Source: Alphaproteobacteria bacterium
GTDB lineage: Bacteria; Pseudomonadota; Alphaproteobacteria; TMED109
Length of the DNA: 39,214 nucleotides
Direction: 5' to 3'
Assembly (NCBI GenBank): GCA_022825235.1
Contig: JAJDYI010000010.1
Coordinates: 1 to 39,214, forward strand
Shown: piece by piece, positions 17,487 through 30,888 of the stretch
Position numbering within the stretch: position 1 is the first letter of the stretch
Layout of the letters: the number at the start of each line of letters is the position of its first letter
Notes under the pieces: generated by a model
Told to the model about the DNA's origin: nothing
The model's database searches: none
What the model saw: only the letters and a program-made list of their open reading frames with translations
Translations under genes and position numbers: made by a program

Positions 17487-17612
17487 ATGAGCAGCAAGCC
17501 GAAAACTCGTGGGGCCCGGCCACGCATTGCGCGGGCAGCGACAATCTTGTGGGAAGCGCAGCGGTATCGGTGCGACGTGCCGGCGCGCCATCCCGCCGGA
17601 CCCCGGCGATGA
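17487..17612 (+). CDS. Possible 41-codon leader ORF overlapping the regulator start
   Basis: A short frame from ATG 17487 ending in a TGA at 17610-17612 that overlaps the ATG of the regulator at 17609 (ATGA). The peptide is basic (MSSKPKTRGARPRIARAA) without recognisable features and without a clear ribosome binding site. It could couple translation to the regulator or be chance. I list it because of the exact overlap and because the regulator's own ribosome binding site is weak. Confidence 0.25.
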   Translation: MSSKPKTRGARPRIARAATILWEAQRYRCDVPARHPAGPRR

Positions 17613-20374
17613 GCGAAACCGGGCCGAGCGCGGACATCGGGTGCGGCGGGCGATCGTCGGCGCAGGCTGACGCTCAATCGCACGACGCGCGGCCGCTCCC
17701 CTGGCTGCTGCGCCAGAAGGTGTCCGTTCCCGAGCGGGCGGCGGATTATCTCGACCGAGCCGAGCTGGCGACACGGACGATGCCCACCCACCGTCGACTG
17801 ACGGTGCTCCACGCACCCGGCGGATTCGGCAAGACGACGCTGCTGGCCGAATGCTGCCGCCGGTTGCGAGAGGATGGGATTCCGACCGCCTGGGTATCCG
17901 TCGACGAGCAGGACGAGCCCGCCGTGCTCGATGCCTATATCGGCTATGCCTGCCGGAACGCGGCGGCGGGCGATTCGCCGAGATCGGAGGAGGTCGCTGT
18001 ATCGGGTTTGGACCGGTTGGGCGGCGGGAGCGGGAGCCGTGTCGGGCCTGTCATGCACGAGATTGCTGAATTCGACGGGCCGTTCGTCCTGGTGCTGGAC
18101 GAACTGGAACGTCTCCGGGACCCGGGAGCGGGGGAACTGCTGGAGTTCCTGCTGCGGAGCGGCCCGCCCAACTTGCATCTGGCCTTTGCGTGCCGAGAGC
18201 TTCCATCCGGCCTGAACATCGCCGGTGCCGTCCTGGAAGGCCGAGCCCTGATCGTGTCGGCGGAGGAATTGCGGTTTTCGAGCTCCGAGGTGGCGGAGTT
18301 CTTCGACGGCAAATTGTCGTCCCCGCAACTGGCGGGGCTGATGACCGATTCGGCGGGTTGGCCGTTCGCGCTCAGGGTTGCCCGAAACGAGATGGGGCGC
18401 GGCAGGAGGCTGGACGCGCTGGCCTCGCAGGAGTTTGTGGAGAACTGGGTGGAGTCGCGACTGTTCGCCGGGCTTGGGAGGGAAGACCGGGAATTTCTCT
18501 TCGATATCGGCCTGTTCGACTGGATGGACGCTGCGCTCCTCGACGAGGTGCTGGACCGCCACGATTCGGTGCGTCGGATCGAGACGATACCGGTCCTGGT
18601 GGGGCTGCTCGAGCCGGTGCATGACGGTGTGACGGACATGTGGCGGCTGCACCCCCTGATCCGGGAGCACTGCGCGAGACGGCGCCTCCGCGAGACGCCC
18701 GAGCGATTTCGGCGCATTCACCGGCGGATTGCGGAGGCGCTCATGCGGCGGGACCAGACGGTGTCCGCGATGCGCCATGCCGTCGAAGCGGGGGAACCGG
18801 CGCTCGCGGGCGACATCCTGGAGCGTGCGGGCGGCGGGCGCCTGATCCTCCGGGACGGGACGGCCCAGTTCCTAGCCGCCGACCGCTGGCTGAGCGAGGC
18901 GGTTATCGCGGAGCGGCCGCGGCTCGCGCTGGCGCGCTGCTTGGCGCTGATCCATTTGGGACGGATGGAAGAAGCCAGGAAGAGATACCGGTCCATCGCC
19001 GCGCCTGCAGGCAACGTTGAAGACGAAGCGGGAGATGTCGAGTTCGAGCTGGCGGTCGACCATTGCATGGTTCGCGGCACGATGCTGCTGTTTGGCGGGG
19101 AACGTTTCGGATCGGCTTTGTTCCAGACCCACCTGGCCGAAATTGCGCGCCTGGCCTTGTCTCCACGAGTCGATGTAGCGGTCCGGGGCATGATGGAGTA
19201 CGGCCTGTGCGTGTCGAACAACATGACGGCTGCATTCGAGGTTGCACTCGATCATGCCGCGCGGGCTCGTCGATACTTCGACCGGAACCGCTACATGACG
19301 ATGTATCTCGACATTCAACTCGGGCAGATCGCCATGGCGCAGGGCCGGGCGACGGATGCGGCGGCGCATTACCGGACGGGCTTGCGAGTCGCGAAAAAGA
19401 ACTTCGTGCTGGATCCCATTGCAACGGTGTTATGCAGGGTCCACCTGCAAGAGCTTGCTCTCGAATGCAGTCGCGTTGCGCCGGACGCGGAGATGACCCG
19501 CGTTCCCGGAGCCTTGGTGACCGGTGCCACTCCCCTTCAGGCCTATGCCGCGGCCGGCGGCGCGGTCATCGATCTGAGTCTGCGGGACGAGGGTGTCGAG
19601 GGCGCGTTGGCGGTGGCCGACGAAATGCTGACATATGTCCGCAAAGCCGGTTTGACCGCATTGGTGAGGTATGTGTCGGCGCTCAGGGTTTCCCTGCTGG
19701 CGCTTGCGGGGCGGATCGGCGATGGCGAACGTGCCTGGGCGGCGGACAATCTGCCTGAGGCGTCGGCGGACTGCCTGGACCTGGCCGGCCAGACCTGGCG
19801 GGAAATGGAGGCCATCTCGTGCGCGCGGCTGCGCCTGGAGATCGGGTGCGAGCGGTTCGATGCCGGTCGCGCCCTGGCCGCCGATCTGCGCGCGATAGCG
19901 GAGGTCCGGGGGCTGAAGCGGACGCTGATGCGCGCGCTCGCTTTGTCGGTGGTGCTGGAACGGCGCGCCGGGGAGGCGAAAGCCGCGGCCGGACACCTGG
20001 AAGCGTATCTGCGTGCCTACGGCGATGCGCCCTACGCAGGGCCGCTGGTGCGCGAGCGCGCGGACTGCGCGCCGGTGCTGACGGAATTGCTTGATTCGGC
20101 CCCACATTGGGCGGACGAGGAGACTGCGCGCTCGCTTCTGGCGGCGATGGAACAGGAAGACACTTCGCGGCAACTGGTGCTGAGCGCGCGCGAGAGAGAG
20201 GTGCTGCAACGGCTCGGGGCACAGCGCGACAAGCAGATCGCCGCGGAGCTCGGTCTGAGCACCTATGGCGTGCGTCATCACCTCCGCAAGCTGTTCGCCA
20301 AGTTGGGGGTGCGCAAGCGGGCCGAGGCGGTACGCCGGGCCAGGGAGATGGGGCTGGTTTCGGACGATTATTGA
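17609..20374 (+). CDS. MalT-like LuxR-family regulator with ATPase domain (LAL type)
   Basis: A 921-residue cytosolic regulator. Residues about 29-60 carry the LAL lead-in (LLRQKVSVPERAADYLDR). The Walker A loop is APGGFGKTT at 69-77 within HRRLTVLHAPGGFGKTTLL, a Walker B-like stretch is PFVLVLDELERL, and then LHPLIREHCARR precedes a long helical-repeat (TPR-like) signal region to about residue 845. The C-terminal LuxR helix-turn-helix is LSAREREVLQRLGAQRDKQIA followed by ELGLSTYGVRHHLRKLFAKL. Such regulators bind ATP and an inducer, form oligomers and activate promoters with repeated sites. The start is uncertain; an in-frame GTG at 17549 is the alternative. It converges with the tandem-STAS gene and the export operon and has an ACTACA island upstream. 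Confidence 0.9.
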   Translation: MSETGPSADIGCGGRSSAQADAQSHDARPLPWLLRQKVSVPERAADYLDRAELATRTMPTHRRLTVLHAPGGFGKTTLLAECCRRLREDGIPTAWVSVDEQDEPAVLDAYIGYACRNAAAGDSPRSEEVAVSGLDRLGGGSGSRVGPVMHEIAEFDGPFVLVLDELERLRDPGAGELLEFLLRSGPPNLHLAFACRELPSGLNIAGAVLEGRALIVSAEELRFSSSEVAEFFDGKLSSPQLAGLMTDSAGWPFALRVARNEMGRGRRLDALASQEFVENWVESRLFAGLGREDREFLFDIGLFDWMDAALLDEVLDRHDSVRRIETIPVLVGLLEPVHDGVTDMWRLHPLIREHCARRRLRETPERFRRIHRRIAEALMRRDQTVSAMRHAVEAGEPALAGDILERAGGGRLILRDGTAQFLAADRWLSEAVIAERPRLALARCLALIHLGRMEEARKRYRSIAAPAGNVEDEAGDVEFELAVDHCMVRGTMLLFGGERFGSALFQTHLAEIARLALSPRVDVAVRGMMEYGLCVSNNMTAAFEVALDHAARARRYFDRNRYMTMYLDIQLGQIAMAQGRATDAAAHYRTGLRVAKKNFVLDPIATVLCRVHLQELALECSRVAPDAEMTRVPGALVTGATPLQAYAAAGGAVIDLSLRDEGVEGALAVADEMLTYVRKAGLTALVRYVSALRVSLLALAGRIGDGERAWAADNLPEASADCLDLAGQTWREMEAISCARLRLEIGCERFDAGRALAADLRAIAEVRGLKRTLMRALALSVVLERRAGEAKAAAGHLEAYLRAYGDAPYAGPLVRERADCAPVLTELLDSAPHWADEETARSLLAAMEQEDTSRQLVLSAREREVLQRLGAQRDKQIAAELGLSTYGVRHHLRKLFAKLGVRKRAEAVRRAREMGLVSDDY

Positions 20375-20444: not shown

Positions 20445-21149
20445 TCATTCGCGGGCAAGCGCGGCGAGCGCGGCTTCGAGGGTCTCCCGGTAGTCGATGA
20501 CCGTGAGAAAGCCGCTCATCTCCATCACCGAGCGGCATTGCGGCGCGAGCGCGGCGATGGCGAGGTCCCCGCCTGCCTGACGGCATTCCTTGGCGCCGAT
20601 CAGCAGGGCGCGCAGGCCGGCGCTGTTCACATAGCTCATTCCCGCGCAATCCAGTGCCACGCGAACCGTTCCGTGCTCGATGGCGTTGGCGATCCTCGCC
20701 AGCAGCAGGGATGCACCGTCGCCGTTCAGCTGGCCGACGAGCGAGAGGACGACCGCCTGCGCCTCGCGCCGTTCCGCGATTTCCATTCCGTCTCGCATTG
20801 TCTTTCGGCGGGGGCGGCCGGTTCCGTTGAGCGCGGCCTCCGCGGTCTCGTGGTATTGCAGCACGGACAACAACCCGCTCGCCTCCAGAAGCGCCCGGCA
20901 TTCGGGCCGGAGCGCGGCAACGGCGAGTTCGCCGCCTTCCCGCACGCATGCCTTCGCGCCGAGGAGCAGCGCGCGGAGCCCCGCGCAGCTGATATAGGCG
21001 ATGTCGCCGCAGTCGAGCACCGCGCGACCCCGGCCCCGCCTTGCAGCGGAGCAGAGTTCGGCTTCCAACTCCCGCGCGCCGGTCGCGTCCAGCCGTCCGG
21101 AGGGAGCGACGATAACGGCCGAACCCGCCTTGCGCGTTTCGAATATCAT
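20445..21149 (-). CDS. Tandem STAS-domain protein (anti-sigma antagonist-like)
   Basis: A 234-residue cytosolic protein made of two STAS domains, about residues 1-110 and 120-234, joined by a short basic linker. Each has the STAS core: VLDCGDIAYISCAGLRALLLGAK in the first and ALDCAGMSYVNSAGLRALLIGAK in the second (shown here in pieces as read). In SpoIIAA-like proteins the Ser of D-S-x-G-L is phosphorylated; here the second domain keeps Ser (NSAGL) but the first has Cys (SCAGL). The ATG at 21149 is chosen because the domain begins there; an in-frame TTG at 21227 lacks a ribosome binding site. It is the last gene of the export operon, 100 bases after the ATPase gene. Its partners, a kinase or sigma regulator, are not in view. 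Confidence 0.85.
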   Translation of the reverse strand: MIFETRKAGSAVIVAPSGRLDATGARELEAELCSAARRGRGRAVLDCGDIAYISCAGLRALLLGAKACVREGGELAVAALRPECRALLEASGLLSVLQYHETAEAALNGTGRPRRKTMRDGMEIAERREAQAVVLSLVGQLNGDGASLLLARIANAIEHGTVRVALDCAGMSYVNSAGLRALLIGAKECRQAGGDLAIAALAPQCRSVMEMSGFLTVIDYRETLEAALAALARE

Positions 21150-21249
21150 CGCCGCTGCCCCCTCATCCCCGACCGTGGCGGTGGCGGGAAATGCGGGCTG
21201 CAGGCCGAAGAACACGCCGACCGCCAAGGAAACACCGGACCCGCATGCG

Positions 21250-21948
21250 TCATGCCGCGCCGGCTTCCCGGGCTTCGGCGGCCTCTTCGAGCAGCGAGCC
21301 GTCGCGGATCAGTGCCCGGCGCCGGCATTGCAGGGAGACCGTCGGGTCGTGGGTGATGATGACCACCGCCACCCGCTCCTCGCGGTTGAGGCGGATCAGG
21401 AGCTGCATCACTTCCTCGGCCGTGTCGGAGTCGAGCGCGCCGGTGGGCTCGTCCGCCAGCACGGCCGACGGCGTCCCCACCAGCGCCCGCGCGATCGCCA
21501 CGCGCTGCTTCTGCCCGCCGGAGAGCTGGTCCGGCCGGTGGTCCAGCCGGTCGGCCATGGCGACCTTCTCCAGTATGTCCACGGCCCGGCGGCGCGCGGC
21601 GCGCCGGCCCGAGCCCCGATAGACCAGCGGCAGGGCGACGTTCTCCAGCGCCGTCAGATGCCCCAGCAGGTTGAAGGACTGGAAGATGAAGCCGATATTC
21701 TCGTTGCGAAATGCCGAGAGCTCCCGGTCGTTCATGGTCGCGACATCGCGCCCGTTGAGCCGGTAGGAACCCGAGGTCGGGCGGCCCAGCAGCCCCAGTA
21801 TGTTCATCAGCGTCGACTTGCCGCTGCCCGACGGCCCCATGATCGACATGAGGTCGCCCGCCTCCACCCGGAGGTCGATCCCCTTCAGCACCTCGACTTC
21901 CACCGGCCCGAGGCGGAACGTCTTGCGGATGTCGGCAAGTTCCAGCAT
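21250..21948 (-). CDS. ABC transporter ATPase, MacB/LolD type
   Basis: A 232-residue ATPase that powers a MacB/LolCDE-like exporter. Walker A is GPSGSGKST at 38-46, the Q-loop is FIFQSFNLL, the signature is LSGGQKQRVAIARAL, Walker B is AVLADEPTGALD and the switch His is in IITHDP. The length and motif spacing are those of stand-alone LolD-like ATPases. In this locus the matching permease is encoded at 25473-26660. In MacB proper the ATPase and permease are one chain, so this is a split version. It lies 92 bases after the TolC-like gene and 100 bases before the tandem-STAS gene. Confidence 0.95.
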   Translation of the reverse strand: MLELADIRKTFRLGPVEVEVLKGIDLRVEAGDLMSIMGPSGSGKSTLMNILGLLGRPTSGSYRLNGRDVATMNDRELSAFRNENIGFIFQSFNLLGHLTALENVALPLVYRGSGRRAARRRAVDILEKVAMADRLDHRPDQLSGGQKQRVAIARALVGTPSAVLADEPTGALDSDTAEEVMQLLIRLNREERVAVVIITHDPTVSLQCRRRALIRDGSLLEEAAEAREAGAA

Positions 21949-22040: not shown

Positions 22041-23435
22041 TCACTTCCCCACCTGCTTCACGCTTATGCCCCACCGGTCGAGCGTCGTGCCGAGCGCGCG
22101 GTCGAGCCGGGCGAGCGAATCCCGGTAGCGCGCCACCGCGTCCAGTTCGCGCCGCTGAGCCGTCACGAGGTCGTCCTCGAAGCGGCCGAGCTGGAAGGCG
22201 GACGACAGGCCTTGCTGCAGCTTGCGGCGTTCCACGTCGAGCTTCCGCTCCGCGAGTTCCCGCGCCTGGCGCGCGAGGTCGATCTGACGCAGCGCCACCG
22301 CCACATCGTACACCGCCCGACGCACCTCGATGCGGATCGACTGGCGCCGCTCGGCGATCTCCATCCGCGCCCGGCGCATCCCGTTGCGCGCGCGCGTCAG
22401 CGCCCGCCGGGGCTCGTCGTCCTGGAGTTGAACCGTCAGGTTCAGCCCGACCGACCAGTGCGTCGGGTCGGGCCCGCTGCGATGATCGGCCTGCGCGTTC
22501 AGGTTGAGATCCGGCAGGAGCGCGTTCTCCGCGCTGTGCAGACGCATGCGCGCCAGCTCCATGCCGATCTCCGCCGTGAGCCAGTCCGTGCGCCGGGCGA
22601 AGGCCGTTTCCAGGCTCTCCTCGAGGTCCGGCCGCTCAGGCTCGACCGGTGGCTCCGGCCGCGGCTCGACCCGCGCCCCCTCTTCGAGGTCGAGCGTGTT
22701 GACGAGGTTGGAATTGGCCGAGTCCAGCGCGTTCCGGGCGTCGATCAGCGCATATTCCTTGCCGGCGACGTCGGCTTCCGTCTGCACCAGGTCCTGCGAC
22801 GCCATGCGGCCCGCCTCGACCAGCGCGCGGTTGATCCCGAGCTGCCGCCGCGCCCGCTCCAGCGCCTCGCGCGCAATGACCGTCCGCTGCCGCTCCCGCA
22901 GCACGCCGCGATAGGCGGACACCGCCGCGTCCACGATGCCGGCCGCGCTGTCCCGGAAGGCGCGCAGGTTGATCCTCTCCTTCAGCCGCGCCTCGCGGAC
23001 CGGCTGGGTGTCGAGCTCCGGCCCGAAGCCCTTGAGCAGCGGCTGCGAGAATGTGAGCGTCGTGGTCGCCTTCCGGTCGCCCTCGCCCGCCAGCGGCTTG
23101 CTGAAGGAGAGCTGGAAGGTGCCGCCGGTCGGCACCCGAAGGCTCGGACCGATGGTGAGGTCCGCCGTCTCCTCGGTCTGCTTTTCGGCGGTCCACCCCA
23201 GGTTCAGGTTCGCCATCGGATCGTAGCGTTCCTCCGCGCCTTCCAGCGTGAGCCGCTGCTCCTCCCGCCCGAGCCTGGCCCGGATCGCCGCGCGGCTCCC
23301 GGTGAGGGCCAGCCGCACCGCCTCCTCCAGCGACAGGTCCAGACGCACAGGCGCGCCCGTCTGCGCCGCGGCCGTCGTCGTCAGCAAGAGCAGCGCAAGG
23401 CTTAGCGCCGGGAACAGTGTCGGCCGCCTTGACAT
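22041..23435 (-). CDS. TolC-family outer-membrane efflux protein
   Basis: A 464-residue outer-membrane channel protein. It has a signal peptide (LFPALSLALLLLTTTAAAQ), followed by LDLSLEEAVRLAL, the standard N-terminal signature, and two related halves of long amphipathic coiled coils. The halves show the typical repeats SAAGIVDAAVSAYRGVLRERQ and ALERARRQLGINRALVEAGR, then EVRRAVYDVAVALRQIDLAR and ELAERKLDVERRKLQQG. It would connect the PAS-adaptor and MacB-like permease to the outside. It now lies apart from the permease because a 2-kb block is inserted upstream. Its own promoter is not obvious; the AT-rich island at 23.6 kb lies upstream of its start. Confidence 0.92.
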   Translation of the reverse strand: MSRRPTLFPALSLALLLLTTTAAAQTGAPVRLDLSLEEAVRLALTGSRAAIRARLGREEQRLTLEGAEERYDPMANLNLGWTAEKQTEETADLTIGPSLRVPTGGTFQLSFSKPLAGEGDRKATTTLTFSQPLLKGFGPELDTQPVREARLKERINLRAFRDSAAGIVDAAVSAYRGVLRERQRTVIAREALERARRQLGINRALVEAGRMASQDLVQTEADVAGKEYALIDARNALDSANSNLVNTLDLEEGARVEPRPEPPVEPERPDLEESLETAFARRTDWLTAEIGMELARMRLHSAENALLPDLNLNAQADHRSGPDPTHWSVGLNLTVQLQDDEPRRALTRARNGMRRARMEIAERRQSIRIEVRRAVYDVAVALRQIDLARQARELAERKLDVERRKLQQGLSSAFQLGRFEDDLVTAQRRELDAVARYRDSLARLDRALGTTLDRWGISVKQVGK

Positions 23436-23960: not shown

Positions 23961-24092
23961 ATTGATAAAACAAAGACTTAACCCCTAGTTTTTCTCACGC
24001 TGGATTCTGGACATTACAGTTGACTTACGCCGCCACTTGTACCCGTATAGCCTTGTCCTGCGCCCATTTTGAAACACCAAGGAGAAGTCCTC

Positions 24093-24584
24093 ATGCAAAT
24101 ATACGCAAAACGTTTTGGCGCCATAGTGGCCAACACGAAGGTGAAACTGTCCGGCGGCTTCATCGCAACCGCCTTGGTGGCGGGAATGTTGCTTGCCGGT
24201 GCTAGCGGCGCCGCCGCCCAGAACGCGACCACCACCACCTGCCAATCGCAGTGGGACGATAGTCCCGCATCGGAATACTGCACCACCAGCTTGTTGCTCC
24301 AGGTCGGCTCGGTCGTGACGAATCCCGCAGACGCGGATTGCGATATCAGCGCGACCTGCAGCATCACCTTCACCCATGGTACGAATGGGGCGAGCAGCAC
24401 TACGCTTAAACCTTCGGTGAGCCTTGCCGTCTTTGTTATGGACGATGTCGATGAGCTGGACATCTGCGTCAAAGAGACGACCGACGCCAGCGGCACAGTA
24501 TCGTATTCAGCGGCACTGAGAACCGCCTGCCGGGCTAACGAATACACCTCTACACAGACGACCACAGGCCAGTTTCACGATTAG
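24093..24584 (+). CDS. Small secreted cysteine-rich protein
   Basis: A 163-residue exported protein of unknown family. The ATG at 24093 has a strong ribosome binding site (AAGGAG at 24079-24084). The signal peptide is long, with the hydrophobic core FIATALVAGMLLAGAS and a likely cut at AAA-Q (residues 41-43). The mature part is Thr/Ser-rich with six cysteines (50, 63, 83, 89, 125, 146), enough for three disulfides. Two patterns stand out: C-x3-WDDSPASEYC and C-DISAT-C followed by AVFVMDDVDELDIC. The first recurs in the truncated gene at 29133, and the second resembles the N-terminal module of the 1969 protein. It sits inside the split export operon on the opposite strand, so it is a candidate cargo or surface protein; that is inference. 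Confidence 0.75.
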   Translation: MQIYAKRFGAIVANTKVKLSGGFIATALVAGMLLAGASGAAAQNATTTTCQSQWDDSPASEYCTTSLLLQVGSVVTNPADADCDISATCSITFTHGTNGASSTTLKPSVSLAVFVMDDVDELDICVKETTDASGTVSYSAALRTACRANEYTSTQTTTGQFHD

Positions 24585-24689
24585 CGGCAGGCGAAACGCG
24601 CTTTGGCCCGATTCCCGGTTTCCTGTGTCCCTGCTCGAGAGATGGTTTCTTTTCGGAGGCAGTGATGCGGAACCGGGATCGGTTATCCG

Positions 24690-25040
24690 GTTGCGCAAGA
24701 ACTTCCAGTGCGTGCGGTCGTCGTGCTCGTCGCGTGCGAGGCGCCGCAGCTCGGGCAACAGCGCGACGGCGGGCGCCAGGTTGACGCCGTAGGCCTCGAC
24801 GATCTGCCCGGTCGCGGCGCGCGATCCGAAGCGCCGGTGGTTGGGGGAGTCCTTCCATGCGAGCGCGCCCAGCCCGTGCAGCGTCTTCTCGTTGCGGCGG
24901 ACCTGCGAGGTCGAGACGCCGAGCCTCCAGGCGGTCTCCTTGACCGACAGCCAGACGATCGGCTGTGTGCCGGGCTGCCAGTCCTGGGGGCGGCTGAAGT
25001 CGAGCAGCAGCACGAAGTGCTTGATGAGCGCCCGGAACAT
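24690..25040 (-). pseudogene. RepC-like plasmid replication protein fragment
   Basis: The minus-strand frame contains FSRPQDWQPGTQPIVWLS, then WRLGVSTSQVRRNEKTLHGLGA, DSPNHRRFGSR and GQIVEAYGVNLAPAVALLPEL. This is the winged helix-turn-helix pattern of the N-terminal domain of RepC-like replication initiators. Only about 115 residues remain; both the start and the large C-terminal part are missing, so it cannot be functional. It abuts the IS1380 remnant at an 11-bp inverted repeat. It may be a trace of plasmid integration. The family call is moderately sure. Confidence 0.5.
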
Positions 25041-25051
25041 GGGCGCTCATC
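25023..25051. repeat. 11-bp perfect inverted repeat at the junction of two remnants
   Basis: GATGAGCGCCC at 25023-25033 and its complement GGGCGCTCATC at 25041-25051, with seven bases between. It lies exactly where the RepC-like fragment and the IS1380-like fragment meet. It may be an end structure, a recombination scar or a hairpin. Confidence 0.5.
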
Positions 25052-25438
25052 GCTACCGCCGCATCGGTCATGAGCCTGAGGCGATCGAGAGGCTCTTCGT
25101 CGATCTCTTCCTCGACGCCCACGGACAAGCCCCTGAGCGGCTGATCCTCGATCTGGACGCCACCGACGACCCGCTGCACGGCCGCCAGGAAGGGCGCTTC
25201 TTCCACGGCTACTACGACTGCTACTGCTACCTGCCGCTCTACATCTTCTGCGGCGATCAAGCACCTGACGCGGCGCATCCGCCGGCACTGGCCGCGCGCC
25301 CGGCTGACCTTCCCGGGGGACAGCCACTACGGACGGACCGAGGCCATGGCATGGTGCGAGGCGAACGGCGTCGACTACATCTTCGGCCTCGCCGGCACTG
25401 CCGCGTTGCACGGCCTCGCGCCTGCCGGCGATCGATGA
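25041..25438 (+). pseudogene. IS1380-family transposase remnant
   Basis: Plus-strand pieces match IS1380 transposases: LDLDATDDPLHGRQEGRFFHG and YYDCYCYLPLYIFCG in one frame, and, after frame changes, IRRHWPRARLTF and then GDSHYGRTEAMAWCEANGVD and YIFGLAG. The first piece holds the catalytic DDPLHG region. A central part is missing, the frame shifts more than once and the C-terminal third is absent. It is therefore inactive. It lies 35 bases from the stop of the MacB-like permease gene. Confidence 0.75.
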
Positions 25439-25472
25439 GGTCGGATAGCCGTGCTACGGCAACGCTGTCGGC

Positions 25473-26660
25473 CTATGTGCCCTGGAGCGCCGTCACCGGG
25501 TCGAGCCTTGCCGCCTGGTAAGCCGGGTAGAGGCCGAAGAAGATGCCAGCCCCGCCCGAGACGATGGCGCCGAGTGCCGTGCCGCCCCAGGAAAGCGCGA
25601 ATTCCCAACCGGTGAACCGGCAGATGCCGTAGGTCGCGCCGAGCCCAAGCAGGACGCCGACAATGCCTCCCGCCAGACACAGGATCAGCGACTCGGCCAG
25701 AAACTGCCCCTGAATGTCCCAGCGCGTCGCGCCCAGGGCGCGGCGGATGCCGATCTCCTTCCTGCGCTCCATCACGGCGACGAGCATGACGTTCATCACC
25801 CCGACGCCGCCGACGAGCAGCGAAATGCCCCCCAGCGCCCCGAGCAGCAATGTGTAGAGACGCTTCTGCCGGTGCATCTGTTCGATCAGCTCCTCCGCGC
25901 TGCGCACCCGCAGCTTGACCCCGGACAGGCGTTGTTCGAACCAGGCGCGGAGCTCCGCCGTGGCCGCGCGGTAGTGGGTCCCGGGGCTCATGCGCGCCAG
26001 AATGTCGCGCAGGGTCTCCCGCGGGGTTACGCGGGCGGCGGTCTCTATGGGGATGAATACGGTTTCGTTGACATCGAAGGGCCGCTGTCCCATGGCGGTC
26101 CGGCGCAATGTCCCTACCACGGTAAAGACGGTCTCCCCGATGCGCACGGTCTCGCCGACGGCTCGACCTCCCCTCGCCTGCGCAAGCGCATTCGCAAGGC
26201 CCGCGCCAAGAGTACAAAAATACCGGCCGCGATCGAGCCTCGAGACGAAGCGCCCTTCCGCGAGATCCAGCCGCGCGAGGCCGGCAAACGCCATCGTGGC
26301 CCCGCTGACGCGCGCGGGCACCGCCTCCGTTCCGCCGAGCACGACATGCGATGAAGCGATGGTGTAGGGAGCGGCGCGGCCGATGGAGGGCAGCGTCACG
26401 ATGCCTTGGGCGTCAGCAAGCGGGACCGATACGCGCCCGGCGTCCCGGTTCTGCGGGCGCAGCCGCACGTTCACGATGTCGGTGCCGAGTTCCTGGAATT
26501 GGCGGGCGGCCTCGGTACGCGCGATCGTGCCGACCGAGATCATGCTGCTCACCGAGGCGACACCGATCGCGATCCCGATGAGCGCCAGGACGGCGCGGTG
26601 TTTCGCCGTCATGAGGCTCGAACATGCCTCCGCCAGATTGGTCCGGCTAAACGGTCCCAT
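25473..26660 (-). CDS. MacB-like ABC exporter permease (FtsX fold)
   Basis: A 395-residue inner-membrane protein. There is one N-terminal membrane helix (AVLALIGIAIGVASVSSMISV), a large periplasmic MacB_PCD domain (residues about 50-270, with GETVRIGETVFTVVGTL), and three C-terminal helices with the FtsX pattern (LLLGALGGISLLVGGVGVMN, MNVMLVAVMERRKEIGIRRALGA, ending PAYQAARLDPVTALQG). It lacks an ATPase domain, which the 21250 gene supplies. MacB-type transporters work as mechanotransmitters that push periplasmic substrates into TolC through an adaptor. It starts 60 bases after the stop of the PAS-adaptor gene, with GGAG before the ATG. Mobile remnants begin 35 bases beyond its stop. Confidence 0.93.
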   Translation of the reverse strand: MGPFSRTNLAEACSSLMTAKHRAVLALIGIAIGVASVSSMISVGTIARTEAARQFQELGTDIVNVRLRPQNRDAGRVSVPLADAQGIVTLPSIGRAAPYTIASSHVVLGGTEAVPARVSGATMAFAGLARLDLAEGRFVSRLDRGRYFCTLGAGLANALAQARGGRAVGETVRIGETVFTVVGTLRRTAMGQRPFDVNETVFIPIETAARVTPRETLRDILARMSPGTHYRAATAELRAWFEQRLSGVKLRVRSAEELIEQMHRQKRLYTLLLGALGGISLLVGGVGVMNVMLVAVMERRKEIGIRRALGATRWDIQGQFLAESLILCLAGGIVGVLLGLGATYGICRFTGWEFALSWGGTALGAIVSGGAGIFFGLYPAYQAARLDPVTALQGT

Positions 26661-26720: not shown

Positions 26721-28517
26721 TCACGGCGCGACCACCCGGTCTCCGGGCGCAAGACCTCTCACAATCTCGACCGAATCGATCGTGGTGATCCCGGTCACGA
26801 CCTCGACGACGCGCTCCTCCCCCGTTTCGCCATCCCGCACGCGGACGCGCGGGCTGCCTCGGGAGAGGTCCACCGCTCCCACCGGCACAACGAGGGCCCG
26901 GTCGCTTTCGTAAACCACGATTTTCATGTCGGCGGACATGCCGAGGCGCACCGACTTGCGCTGCGCCTCGTCCAGCCTCTCGACCGTCGCCGTGATCCCG
27001 AAGACCGGCAACCTCCGCGGGCCCGGCGGCCGGAACGCCTGCGACGAAACATGCGCCACCCGCCCTTCGAGCACGATACCTGGAAAGGCGGGACCCAAAA
27101 TCCGCACCGCATGACCCGGGCGGATGCGCCGGACCTCCACCTCGTCCACCTGTCCCGATGCCGTGATGCCCCCCATGTCGCCGATCGTGACGAGAGGCTC
27201 TCCGGCTTCGACCTCGGTTCCCGCCGACAGCGCGTCGCGGCGCTGCCCTACCGCCTTGCCAAGCTGCAGCACGACCCCGGCAACCGGCGCCACTACCGTT
27301 GCGTTGCGCAGGATATCTTCAATCCGTTCGAGATCGCCCCTGGCGTTTTCGAGTTCGAGACGGGCGATCTCGCGATTTTCCTGCCCCTTGGCGAGCACGG
27401 CGTTCAGGTTTTGCTCCGCCGATTCCAGGTCGAGAAGGCGGGTGCGATGCTCGCGTTCCGCAGATGCCTTCCTTGCCGTAGGCGCCAGCCCCTCCTTTAC
27501 CAGGAACGCTGCTTCCGCAAGCTTGGTGTTCGACGCTTCGAGCGCGATCCGGGCCTTGGTCACAGCCCGCTTCGACCTCGACGCCTCCGAACCGTTCGGC
27601 CAGTCGGCCAGCTTGCGCATCTGCGCTTCCGCCTTGAGCCACTCCGCCTGCGCCTTCCGATGCCGGGTCCGGACCTCGCTGACATTGAGCGCCAGCAGCA
27701 TCTGTCCGGCGGAAACGCGCTCCCCGAGCTTGACGTGGACCGTCTCGACCTTGCCCTCGACCGGGCTGGTCACCGCGACCTCGCGAAGCGGTTCGATCGC
27801 GCTCGCCACCGTGATCGTCGACGCGATGCGCCTCGGCTTCACGGTGAAGAGGCGTGTGCCGCCGGGAGCCCCCGCGGCCCGTGTCGACGCTGCGCTGAAC
27901 AGGGTGAAAGGAGATTCGTCCCACAGCCAGACTCCGAAGCCGGTGGCAAGCACGCCCCCGCACAGGAAAGCGGCGAGCCTGACCGCGCGAACTTTCCGTA
28001 GCAGCCCGCCGAGTCTGTCATTGCGCTCTTCCAGGCTGCGATAGGCGTCCTGCAATTCCCGGTGCTTGGCCGCGACATCCTGAGCAAGCGCAATTTCTTT
28101 CGCCCGCAGGCCTTCGAGTTCGGAGATATCGCTGAACACGGCGATGATGCCCTTGTGGACATCCCCGTCGCCGGACAGCTCGCGCAGATAGGCCGTATCG
28201 ACGGCCAGAGGCACCGTCCGCCCTTCCACAAAGACGGTCGCCACCCGCTGATGGCCGACGGCGCCCTCGTAGATCGCCGCCAGTACGGCTTCGCTCAGGT
28301 CTTCAAATGCTTTGTCGACGACGAAGACCTCGGTGAAGTTCCGATGCAGCACGGCCTCGCGGTCGAGCCCGAGAAGTTTCGAGGCGGCGGGATTGAAGGT
28401 TTCGATCCGTCCCTCGTCATCGATGAGCATGACGCCGCTGGTCATGCTTTCGCAGACGGCGCGGTAAATGGAGGACAGAGGCTGCTCGGCCGTCTCGTCG
28501 GGGCGTCCACCCGTCAT
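26721..28517 (-). CDS. PAS sensor domain fused to a MacA/HlyD-type membrane fusion protein
   Basis: A 598-residue protein with an unusual order of parts. Residues about 16-135 are a cytosolic PAS domain (GVMLIDDEGRIETFNPAASKLLG, KGIIAVFSDISELE). Residues 136-178 form a coiled-coil signalling helix. A single membrane helix lies at about 181-199 (LAAFLCGGVLATGFGVWLW), preceded by positive charges (RKVRAVR). The rest is a periplasmic adaptor: a lipoyl half (VTSPVEGKVETVHVKLGERVSAGQ), a helical hairpin (about 280-410), the second lipoyl half (VVAPVAGVVLQLGKAVGQ), a barrel domain and a C-terminal part (PVGAVDLSRGSPRVRVRDGE). Normal adaptors have only a short N-terminal anchor. It should bridge the MacB-like permease and the TolC-like channel while sensing a cytosolic cue. 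GGGGGAG lies before the ATG. It is the first gene of the operon. Confidence 0.92.
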   Translation of the reverse strand: MTGGRPDETAEQPLSSIYRAVCESMTSGVMLIDDEGRIETFNPAASKLLGLDREAVLHRNFTEVFVVDKAFEDLSEAVLAAIYEGAVGHQRVATVFVEGRTVPLAVDTAYLRELSGDGDVHKGIIAVFSDISELEGLRAKEIALAQDVAAKHRELQDAYRSLEERNDRLGGLLRKVRAVRLAAFLCGGVLATGFGVWLWDESPFTLFSAASTRAAGAPGGTRLFTVKPRRIASTITVASAIEPLREVAVTSPVEGKVETVHVKLGERVSAGQMLLALNVSEVRTRHRKAQAEWLKAEAQMRKLADWPNGSEASRSKRAVTKARIALEASNTKLAEAAFLVKEGLAPTARKASAEREHRTRLLDLESAEQNLNAVLAKGQENREIARLELENARGDLERIEDILRNATVVAPVAGVVLQLGKAVGQRRDALSAGTEVEAGEPLVTIGDMGGITASGQVDEVEVRRIRPGHAVRILGPAFPGIVLEGRVAHVSSQAFRPPGPRRLPVFGITATVERLDEAQRKSVRLGMSADMKIVVYESDRALVVPVGAVDLSRGSPRVRVRDGETGEERVVEVVTGITTIDSVEIVRGLAPGDRVVAP

Positions 28518-28900: not shown

Positions 28901-29078
28901 TCTTTTCGTTAATCGATACGACGAATTGGCACCAAGGAGCAACTAGCAGTTGTGCAAGTATCGTGATGAAGAACAACGACACAGTTTGTATCGAACAGAG
29001 TTAATCTTTCTTATGCATCGAGAGATTAAAAAGAGTGTTTACCGGCTTGCGGAGTTTTGCTTCAGGTTGTTTCTACTT

Positions 29079-29102
29079 TCCGACGAAAGGATTTCCGTCG
29101 GA
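29079..29102 (+). promoter_or_regulatory. Small hairpin in the leader of the truncated Cys-rich gene
   Basis: TCCGACG at 29079-29085 pairs with CGTCGGA at 29096-29102, with ten bases between. It lies 18 bases before the ribosome binding site GAGGAG (29121-29126), so it could affect translation if transcribed. Confidence 0.3.
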
Positions 29103-29132
29103 GTCACTTGCGAAGAGCCTGAGGAGACGATC

Positions 29133-29282
29133 ATGAAGGTCCCGGCGAAACCCTTTCTTGCAGGTATGGCGCTTGCCTCGATGCTGCTGGCCGGCGCGAG
29201 ACTTGCCAGTGCCACAGGCAGCGAGTGCGCCGTTGACGACTGGAACGATGCCCTTGCGAGCAGCTACTGCTCGTCGTCATAG
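29133..29282 (+). pseudogene. Truncated small secreted cysteine-rich protein
   Basis: A 49-residue frame with a strong ribosome binding site (GAGGAG, six bases before the ATG). It has a clean signal peptide (PFLAGMALASMLLAGARLASA) and then C-AVDDWNDALASSYC followed by SSS and a stop. The start of the mature part matches the 24093 protein (W-[DN]-D-x2-AS-x-YC), but the remaining 100 residues are missing. The homology ends at base 29270 and the next bases belong to the convergent VCBS gene, so both genes were cut at this point. It is probably dead, although a short secreted peptide could still be made. Confidence 0.6.
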
Positions 29283-30589
29283 TCGGCGCAGACCGCGCCC
29301 CGGCCCTGGCCCGTGTGGCGGATGCCCAGCTCGGACGAGCGTTCGGTGAAGGTCCCGTCGCCGTTCGCCATGAACAGCCGGGAGGGATCGTCCAGGAATC
29401 CGGCGTATTTCCGGACATATTCTTCCTCCAGGCCGTATTGGCCGGCCTCGCTCACGCCGTAGCCGTTGGTATGGAAGATGTCGACATGGCCGTCATTGTC
29501 GAAATCGGCGAAACAGGCTCCCCAGCCCCAGCCGCCCTCCCGGACGCCGGCCGTGTCCGTTGCATCCTCGAACCGGCCGTCGCCGAGATTTCGGTAGAGC
29601 CGGTTGCCCGTAGGGCCTTCACCGGACCGGCCCTCCGGATCGTGAATGCTGGTCACGAACCAATCCATGCCTCCGTCGCGGTCGTAGTCCCCGACCGCCG
29701 CGCCCATGCCGTTCTCGTCGGTGATGACGGCATCGCGGATGTCGACGAAGCGCCTGCCGTCTTCGTTGCGCAGGACCTGGCCGGTACCGAAATCGCCCGC
29801 CAGCAGGACGTCCGGGTAGCCGTCGCCGTCGATGTCGCTGAATGTCGGCGTAAAGGACACTTCGAGAGGCGTCGTCAGGCCCGGCTGCCTGAGGGTGCGG
29901 ATCGGCACGATATCGGTGATGTCCTCGAACCGACCCTTGCCGTCGTTGCGCCAGAGATAGTGGAAGGGCGCGTTGAGCCCGTCCGAGAGCTTGCCCCATT
30001 GGGCGAAAAACAGGTCGAGATCGCCGTCGCGGTCGTAGTCTCCCGCGGCCATCGAATAAAGATGGGTCTTGGCCGAGCCTGTGGGGAACGGGTCGGACAT
30101 TTCCGCGAAGCGCCCGCCGCCGTCATTGCGGAACGCCTGCGCGCCGTCTCGGTGGATGGACAGGAAATCCATCGCGCCGTCGCCGTCGAGGTCGATGAAG
30201 TACCCGGACCGGTCCGGCGCCGTCGCTTCGATACCGCCATTGTCCAAGCGCGCCGCGAACCGCCGCCCGTCCCAGGAGAACAGCCGGCCGGGTTCGCCTC
30301 CGCCGTGCGCAACATAGAGCTCGGGCTTTCCGTCGCTGTCGATATCGACAAGAGCCAGGCCGCCGTCTTCCAGGCGGGCGGCGGTGTCCCCGTCGTCGTC
30401 CGGTTCGACCGGGCGCACCGCATAGGACAGACCGACCGCTTGGGTAACATCGACGAATCCGCCGCCCGGTCCGGTGGGCGGCGCGGACCGCGACGAGCCC
30501 GCGCCGGACGCCGACGGGATGAGCGCGAGGCAGGCTAGCGTTACCGCCGCGCGGCGAAGGAATTGCAGGGGTCGAGCCGACGTTGTCAT
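29264..30589 (-). pseudogene. FG-GAP/VCBS-repeat secreted protein, C-terminally truncated
   Basis: A 441-residue exported protein. The ATG at 30589 gives a signal peptide (LQFLRRAAVTLACLALIPSASG); a longer upstream frame is arginine/histidine-rich and unlikely. The mature part is a series of VCBS/FG-GAP beta-propeller repeats with calcium-binding loops: DIDSDGKPELYV, DLDGDGAMDFLS, DYDRDGDLDLFF, DIDGDGYPDVLL, DYDRDGGMDWFV and DFDNDGHVDIFH. The last repeat begins CADYD and then ends after DEQ, where relatives continue with DGD and often a C-terminal ASPIC/UnbV domain. The stop lies in the truncated Cys-rich gene, so the gene is broken by rearrangement. The remaining propeller could still fold; I rate it as a probable pseudogene. 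An ACTACA island lies about 320 bases upstream of its start. Confidence 0.75.
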
Positions 30590-30612
30590 GGCATGCCCGG
30601 CATCGACATCGT

Positions 30613-30888
30613 TTATGTCCCCCAATATGCGCCGCAGATGCCGTGGGAGCGTTCTCCCGCCGTGTCGATGGCGAGGTCTTGAATGCCGAGGCTGAAGTCG
30701 CCCGTGCCCACATGTGTGCGGAAGGCGCCTTTGGCGGCGTCTCCCGCCGTGGTGATGAAGCTGTCTCGAACGTCGAGGTTGAATTCGCTCACCAAATAGC
30801 GATCGCGCCGGGATGTCAGCGCTGAGGAAGGCGGCTTCGAACCGCCCCTTTTCGGGCGATCCATGCACGACCCGGGAACCCGTGGCAA
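30613..30888 (-). CDS. Unrecognised short ORF or 3' gene fragment
   Basis: The frame ends at 30613, 23 bases before the VCBS gene start. Its last 60 codons (EFNLDVRDSFITTAGDAAKG, then GTGDFSLGIQDLAIDTAG, then GICGAYWGT) have strongly GC-rich third positions and look like real coding DNA, unlike the first 30 codons. I recognise no family. It is likely either a small gene starting at an internal GTG or the C-terminal end of a larger gene cut by the AT-rich island that begins just upstream near 30890. Confidence 0.35.
   Translation of the reverse strand: MPRVPGSCMDRPKRGGSKPPSSALTSRRDRYLVSEFNLDVRDSFITTAGDAAKGAFRTHVGTGDFSLGIQDLAIDTAGERSHGICGAYWGT

Follow-up and report, generated by a model that had tools for sequence, protein, structure and literature searches.

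Why would the adaptor of an efflux pump, a protein that works in the periplasm, carry a PAS domain on the cytosolic side of the membrane? The question is raised by a gene in contig JAJDYI010000010.1 (assembly GCA_022825235.1, Alphaproteobacteria bacterium), the whole 39,214-nucleotide stretch of which is called the window below. The gene encodes a complete MacA/HlyD periplasmic adaptor with a PAS domain and a coiled coil ahead of the membrane helix, and is a variant rather than a standard MacA. Our reading, to which we give a probability of roughly 0.55, is that this PAS-adaptor belongs to a MacAB–TolC-type ATP-binding cassette (ABC) exporter and that its cytosolic module is sensory and gates the pump; from the evidence set out here we infer both the sensor role of the PAS domain and the direction of the signal, from cytosol to pump.

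Pfam, the AlphaFold2 model and the hydropathy and charge profiles agree on a PAS domain and a coiled-coil helix preceding a single membrane helix, as a preliminary description of the locus had proposed from the sequence alone. The domain search supports the PAS assignment, with a match to PF00989 at residues 18–131 that scores 44.5 bits against a cut-off of 22.6 (E = 1.8e-11). Beyond the membrane helix, Pfam identifies HlyD_D23 at residues 245–492 (51.7 bits against a cut-off of 30, E = 9e-14) and HlyD_3 at 407–496 (E = 7e-12, above the curated cut-off), and the NCBIfam model RND_mfp (TIGR01730; 97.9 bits against 94.9) places the body in the RND_mfp/MacA group. The net charge is +2 before the membrane segment (residues 178–199) and −1 after it, and the PAS domain is therefore predicted to be cytosolic. 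Structure prediction gives the same picture: the AlphaFold2 model, built on a ten-sequence alignment (mean predicted local distance difference test score (pLDDT) 75.5, predicted template modelling score (pTM) 0.42), has a PAS fold at about residues 14–130, with an order of strands and helices that agrees with that fold, followed by an unbroken helix at 132–198 that takes in both the coil and the membrane span; the adaptor comes next. The top Foldseek match of the model is MacA in MacAB–TolC (9qgy, E = 8.9e-23). The coil shows no indels over ten homologues, has a hydrophobic period of 3.5 residues (heptad; permutation p = 0.0009) and contains the invariant residues E141 and N166, features that make it a candidate signalling helix (S-helix). 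The preliminary description had also supposed that adaptors normally have only a short anchor inside the cell, which is true of MacA but not of HlyD-type adaptors, whose small cytosolic N-terminal domain binds substrate.

The partners of the adaptor are indicated by gene order. At homologous loci the genes for TolC, the PAS-adaptor, the ATPase and a MacB-type permease stand side by side, in line with the earlier proposal that the adaptor works with the products of the genes at 25473, 21250 and 22041. With permease, ATPase and channel co-encoded in sister operons, and all four pump genes present in the window, both a tripartite complex of the MacAB–TolC type and its export activity are predicted from gene content. 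The window also encodes a double-STAS protein. A homologue with 50% identity (L107:10320-11504) is found next to a DsbA-like gene, within a few kilobases of a second PAS-adaptor locus. Some ABC ATPases are known to have STAS proteins as partners, MlaB being one such protein.

A search for the same PAS–membrane helix–adaptor architecture recovered 17 full-length copies: five in the genome itself (100, 65, 44, 39 and 36% identity), 11 spread over eight further proteobacterial genomes, and the last in a separate metagenome-assembled genome (MAG). The 11 are made up of three copies in one congener, one in another, five in other alphaproteobacterial families and two in one further genome, and the copy in the independently assembled MAG (JAJDVH010000114.1, Alphaproteobacteria bacterium) is 87% identical. 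Occurrence is patchy, in that four of six congeners have no PAS-adaptor, the matching permease also being missing from those genomes; the pump as a unit has the character of an accessory module. No plasmid copy with a PAS domain was found among the matches listed, none of which covered 80% of the query.

The PAS domain is under purifying selection, with a ratio of non-synonymous to synonymous substitution rates (dN/dS) of about 0.3. Compared with the MAG copy, dN/dS is 0.31 for the PAS domain, 0.10 for the coil and 0.25 for the body; compared with the 65% paralogue, the values are 0.27, 0.21 and 0.31. Pairwise distances in the PAS–coil part and in the body are closely correlated (r = 0.95) and the mean divergences are similar (0.60 for PAS and 0.55 for the body), so the two have been inherited together. 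A degenerating PAS domain is ruled out by dN/dS and the matched divergence, and recent acquisition from one of the genome's own kinases was also rejected, residues 1–178 matching only the five adaptors (E<=1e-3). On a tree of the adaptor body, whose root and several long branches are uncertain, the PAS label requires two changes, and PAS-less relatives, mostly from outside the class, branch close to two PAS-bearing ones; either one gain and a loss or two gains could fit this tree. Since PAS-less members, which have no coil either, occur in the same adaptor clade, the module is separable.

A related adaptor from another class of the phylum (L073:7011-8921, genome G561) has a GAF domain (E = 3.2e-12) at the PAS position, followed by coil, membrane helix and adaptor, in an operon of TolC, adaptor, ATPase and permease. 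Its coil resembles that of the PAS-adaptor ('NHRNLQMAFREVEKDKDRL' against 'KHRELQDAYRSLEERNDRL'). In further relatives the cytosolic domain is entirely missing. That two unlike domains, both of the small-molecule type, occupy this one position argues for a sensory role, and sensor modules on the cytosolic side may prove to be recurrent; exchange of one sensor for the other is suggestive only, as it involves one gene and such coils are common. GAF-adaptors as a widespread class were considered and rejected: 48 genomes of that class yielded one full-length gene, the other matches being GAF-type stretches of other proteins. A double-GAF GGDEF protein (L073:10930-12855) is encoded immediately downstream of the GAF-adaptor operon.

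Which cue the PAS domain might sense can be narrowed down. Among 13 aligned PAS sequences there is neither an invariant cysteine, as would form the flavin adduct of a LOV domain, nor an invariant histidine, as the proximal ligand of haem PAS domains of the FixL/DosP type. The missing residues speak against LOV-type light sensing and conserved-histidine haem sensing, and the light cue that had been entertained earlier is not supported in its LOV form. The remaining candidates are redox sensing through a flavin, a metabolite or other ligand, and a protein partner.

MacA couples to MacB and raises its ATPase activity (PMC13328181), and signalling helices typically carry signals between an input domain, PAS or GAF, and the output (PMC1592074). 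In the mechanism that we propose, the PAS domain would probably dimerise on the cytosolic face, and the coil would continue as a single helix through the membrane helix to the periplasmic adaptor, such that a cue reaching the PAS domain, be it a ligand, a redox change or a protein, would alter helix packing around the MacB-type permease and the ATPase. The changed packing would in turn set pump assembly or ATP hydrolysis, and secretion would be switched on or off at the pump directly rather than via gene expression.

The alternative that survives best is that PAS and coil together form a fixed module for dimerisation, which helps six adaptors to assemble round the permease and senses nothing. 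It would account for the lack of conserved cofactor residues and for the coil being the part most constrained by dN/dS, and the closest PDB relatives of the PAS domain (WalK, CitA and ThkA) include PAS domains that relay signals. We nevertheless regard it as unlikely, because relatives in the same clade do without both PAS and coil, so that the fold is not generally needed for assembly, because another small-molecule fold, GAF, substitutes in one relative, and because the PAS domain itself has been retained under selection.

Slightly more doubtful is a role in recruitment, on the model of HlyD, whose N-terminal domain binds HlyA: the cytosolic domain would take hold of a substrate or a partner and would select cargo instead of sensing a cue. 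PAS domains can bind proteins, and the presence of the double-STAS gene after the ATPase, recurring at a second locus, also speaks for this role. MacB-type pumps, however, take their substrates from the periplasm, and the candidate cargo described below, which has signal-peptide-like starts, would once folded be out of reach of a cytosolic domain. Published precedents point both ways: the cytosolic domain of HlyD does bind substrate (PMC13328181, PMC8277102), whereas export of the enterotoxin STII by MacAB–TolC is a case of periplasmic uptake (PMC8277102).

We consider it improbable that information flows in reverse, the pump reporting periplasmic load and the PAS domain acting as an output that engages a cytosolic regulator. 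MacA couples the periplasmic and cytosolic states of MacB (PMC13328181), the gene for a LuxR-type regulator (17549–20374) adjoins the window operon and the GGDEF enzyme comes after the GAF version, all of which could suit such a scheme; but the usual place of PAS and GAF domains is upstream of signalling helices, where they act as inputs (PMC1592074), and no output domain is attached here. Finally, an assembly error or chance fusion of two genes can be dismissed, given full-length homologues in the same genome, in congeners, in other families and in the separate MAG, and a frame that is continuous coding DNA over 27880–28130, with neither stop nor frameshift around 27920–28000, where a sequencing error might have created the join.

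The pump loci themselves offer a candidate for what is exported. The members of the A2 family, which had not been described before, are small and have a signal-peptide-like (Sec-type) start; they share the pattern C-x3-W-x4-A-x3-C ... C ... C ... C, in which the C/W/A/C/C/C/C residues are invariant. The family has no Pfam match, and its fold no PDB match at E<=0.001; the predicted core is confident (pLDDT about 90 over much of residues 65–165). Members form tandem arrays round pump operons and also occur at scattered sites (window, L027, L030, L031, L052 and L106). A profile built from 13 members was searched against this genome, G006, G313 and 18 others, and gave 12 matches in this genome (9 at pump loci), 8 in G006 (3 at pump loci) and 3 in G313 (all at pump loci), with zero in the 18 other genomes. 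When the profile was built from window-type loci alone it found ten held-out clusters, of which 4 coincided with held-out pump loci, where 0.11 would be expected (P = 2.7e-6, on the assumption that the clusters are independent). In G768, a genome that was looked at later, eight members surround one of the pump loci, and in all 8 of the 17 pump loci carry the family. Near the A2 copies that lie away from pumps, no protein of the window pump was found.

The clustering suggests, by analogy with STII, that A2 proteins are disulfide-bonded cargo exported via MacAB–TolC. In one clade, small proteins would be Sec-exported, oxidised in the periplasm and expelled through adaptor, permease and TolC. We tentatively put forward, at somewhat less than even odds, a wider class of sensor-gated tripartite exporters, in which interchangeable PAS or GAF domains would be wired by coil and membrane helix to the adaptor for post-translational control of secretion, one clade serving the new disulfide-bonded secreted family. 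Other secreted cysteine proteins were also observed. At L053:4180-5722 (G403), three small ones of another pattern, ending CSC, lie directly upstream of a TolC/PAS-adaptor operon, and larger cysteine-rich ones (about 370–380 residues) with a similar C...W-D-N-S-P motif occur near pump loci (L107:1496-2632 and L006:11474-12583).

Several observations weigh against sensory gating and the cargo proposed with it. The existence of close PAS-less relatives makes it plausible that the pumps work without PAS. The PAS alignment holds no cofactor-binding signature, and a GAF domain at the PAS position is known from a single gene of a single genome. With a pTM of 0.42 from ten sequences, the placement of domains in the model is not reliable. 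In the window itself, remnants at 24507–25521 part the PAS-adaptor and permease from TolC and the ATPase. As to cargo, 9 of the 17 pump loci have no A2 member, and some members in G000 and G006 lie far from any pump.

Features of the PAS-adaptor locus, with positions in the window
Feature	Position	Strand	Basis or remark
PAS–coil–membrane helix–adaptor gene	26721..28517	−	598 residues; ATG at 28517, stop at 26721
PAS domain, residues 18–131	28125..28466	−	Pfam PF00989, E = 1.8e-11; PAS fold in AlphaFold2 model
Coiled-coil signalling-type helix, residues 132–177	27987..28124	−	Gap-free in homologues, heptad period, low dN/dS
Single membrane helix, residues 178–199, continuous with coil	27921..27986	−	Hydropathy, charge bias, model helix 132–198
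Periplasmic adaptor body (barrel-sandwich, hairpin and membrane-proximal domains), residues 222–598	26724..27854	−	HlyD_D23, HlyD_3, RND_mfp; MacA fold match
MacB-type permease without fused ATPase (MacB_PCD + FtsX)	25473..26660	−	Pfam/NCBIfam; near PAS-adaptor in homologous loci
ABC ATPase, MacB/LolD type	21250..21948	−	Pfam/NCBIfam; homologous operons
TolC-family outer-membrane channel	22041..23435	−	OEP, E = 2.4e-34; homologous operons
Double-STAS protein	20445..21227	−	22 bp after ATPase; possible regulatory partner
RepC N-terminal fragment (PF03428) and DDE transposase fragment (PF13701)	24507..25521		Operon-splitting remnants
Small secreted six-cysteine protein, candidate cargo	24069..24584	+	Family A2 alignment, clustering at pump loci
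Second A2 member, probable pseudogene	28950..29282	+	In-frame stop (1 TAG inside match); longer copy L006:4370-5002

Two further neighbours were noted. The LuxR-type regulator is a large AAA-LuxR-type protein encoded on the plus strand, with no match in the other pump loci compared, and an FG-GAP repeat protein is encoded beside the pump locus (29264–30868, minus strand).

Among known systems, MacA of Escherichia coli (PDB 5nik, 9qgy) is the best structural and profile match, sharing the adaptor fold, the N-terminal membrane helix, the MacB-type permease and ATPase, and the TolC partner; it differs in having no cytoplasmic domain (PMC13328181), and in the MacB of E. coli the ATPase is fused to the permease, where here the two are separate genes. 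The nearest precedent is HlyD of type I secretion, which likewise has a cytosolic N-terminal part before its membrane helix; in HlyD this is a small part that binds the HlyA signal, whereas here it is a PAS fold and coil of ~175 residues, paired with a MacB-type transporter. The GAF-bearing adaptor has a related body, a similar coil and the same operon genes, and differs in its domain, its class and in being a single example. In EAG/hERG potassium channels an N-terminal cytosolic PAS domain modulates a membrane transport protein and can bind ligands (PMC10687071, PMC8993916), although the transport protein is unrelated and the likeness is one of analogy only. STII, a small disulfide protein, passes through Sec into the periplasm, from which a pump of the MacAB type, MacAB–TolC, expels it (PMC8277102); A2 has no known relation to it, and its parallel role as cargo is proposed.

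A 2026 review describes MacA as without a cytoplasmic domain and tuned by transcription (PMC13328181). No PAS- or GAF-bearing adaptor was found described in the full-text literature, in agreement with the preliminary description, the search having covered open-licence papers, where absence is not proof. The system is a real, conserved variant of the known MacAB–TolC-type machine, new in having a cytosolic sensor domain. The adaptors of MacB-type pumps have so far been treated as scaffolds or mechanical couplers, and the control of these pumps has been placed at the level of transcription. Were the adaptor to carry a conserved sensor in the cytosol, the state of the cell could act on export directly. 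The PAS-adaptor would be a natural tool with which to ask how an adaptor controls an ABC motor across the membrane, and the A2 family provides testable candidate cargo for a class of pump with few known protein substrates.
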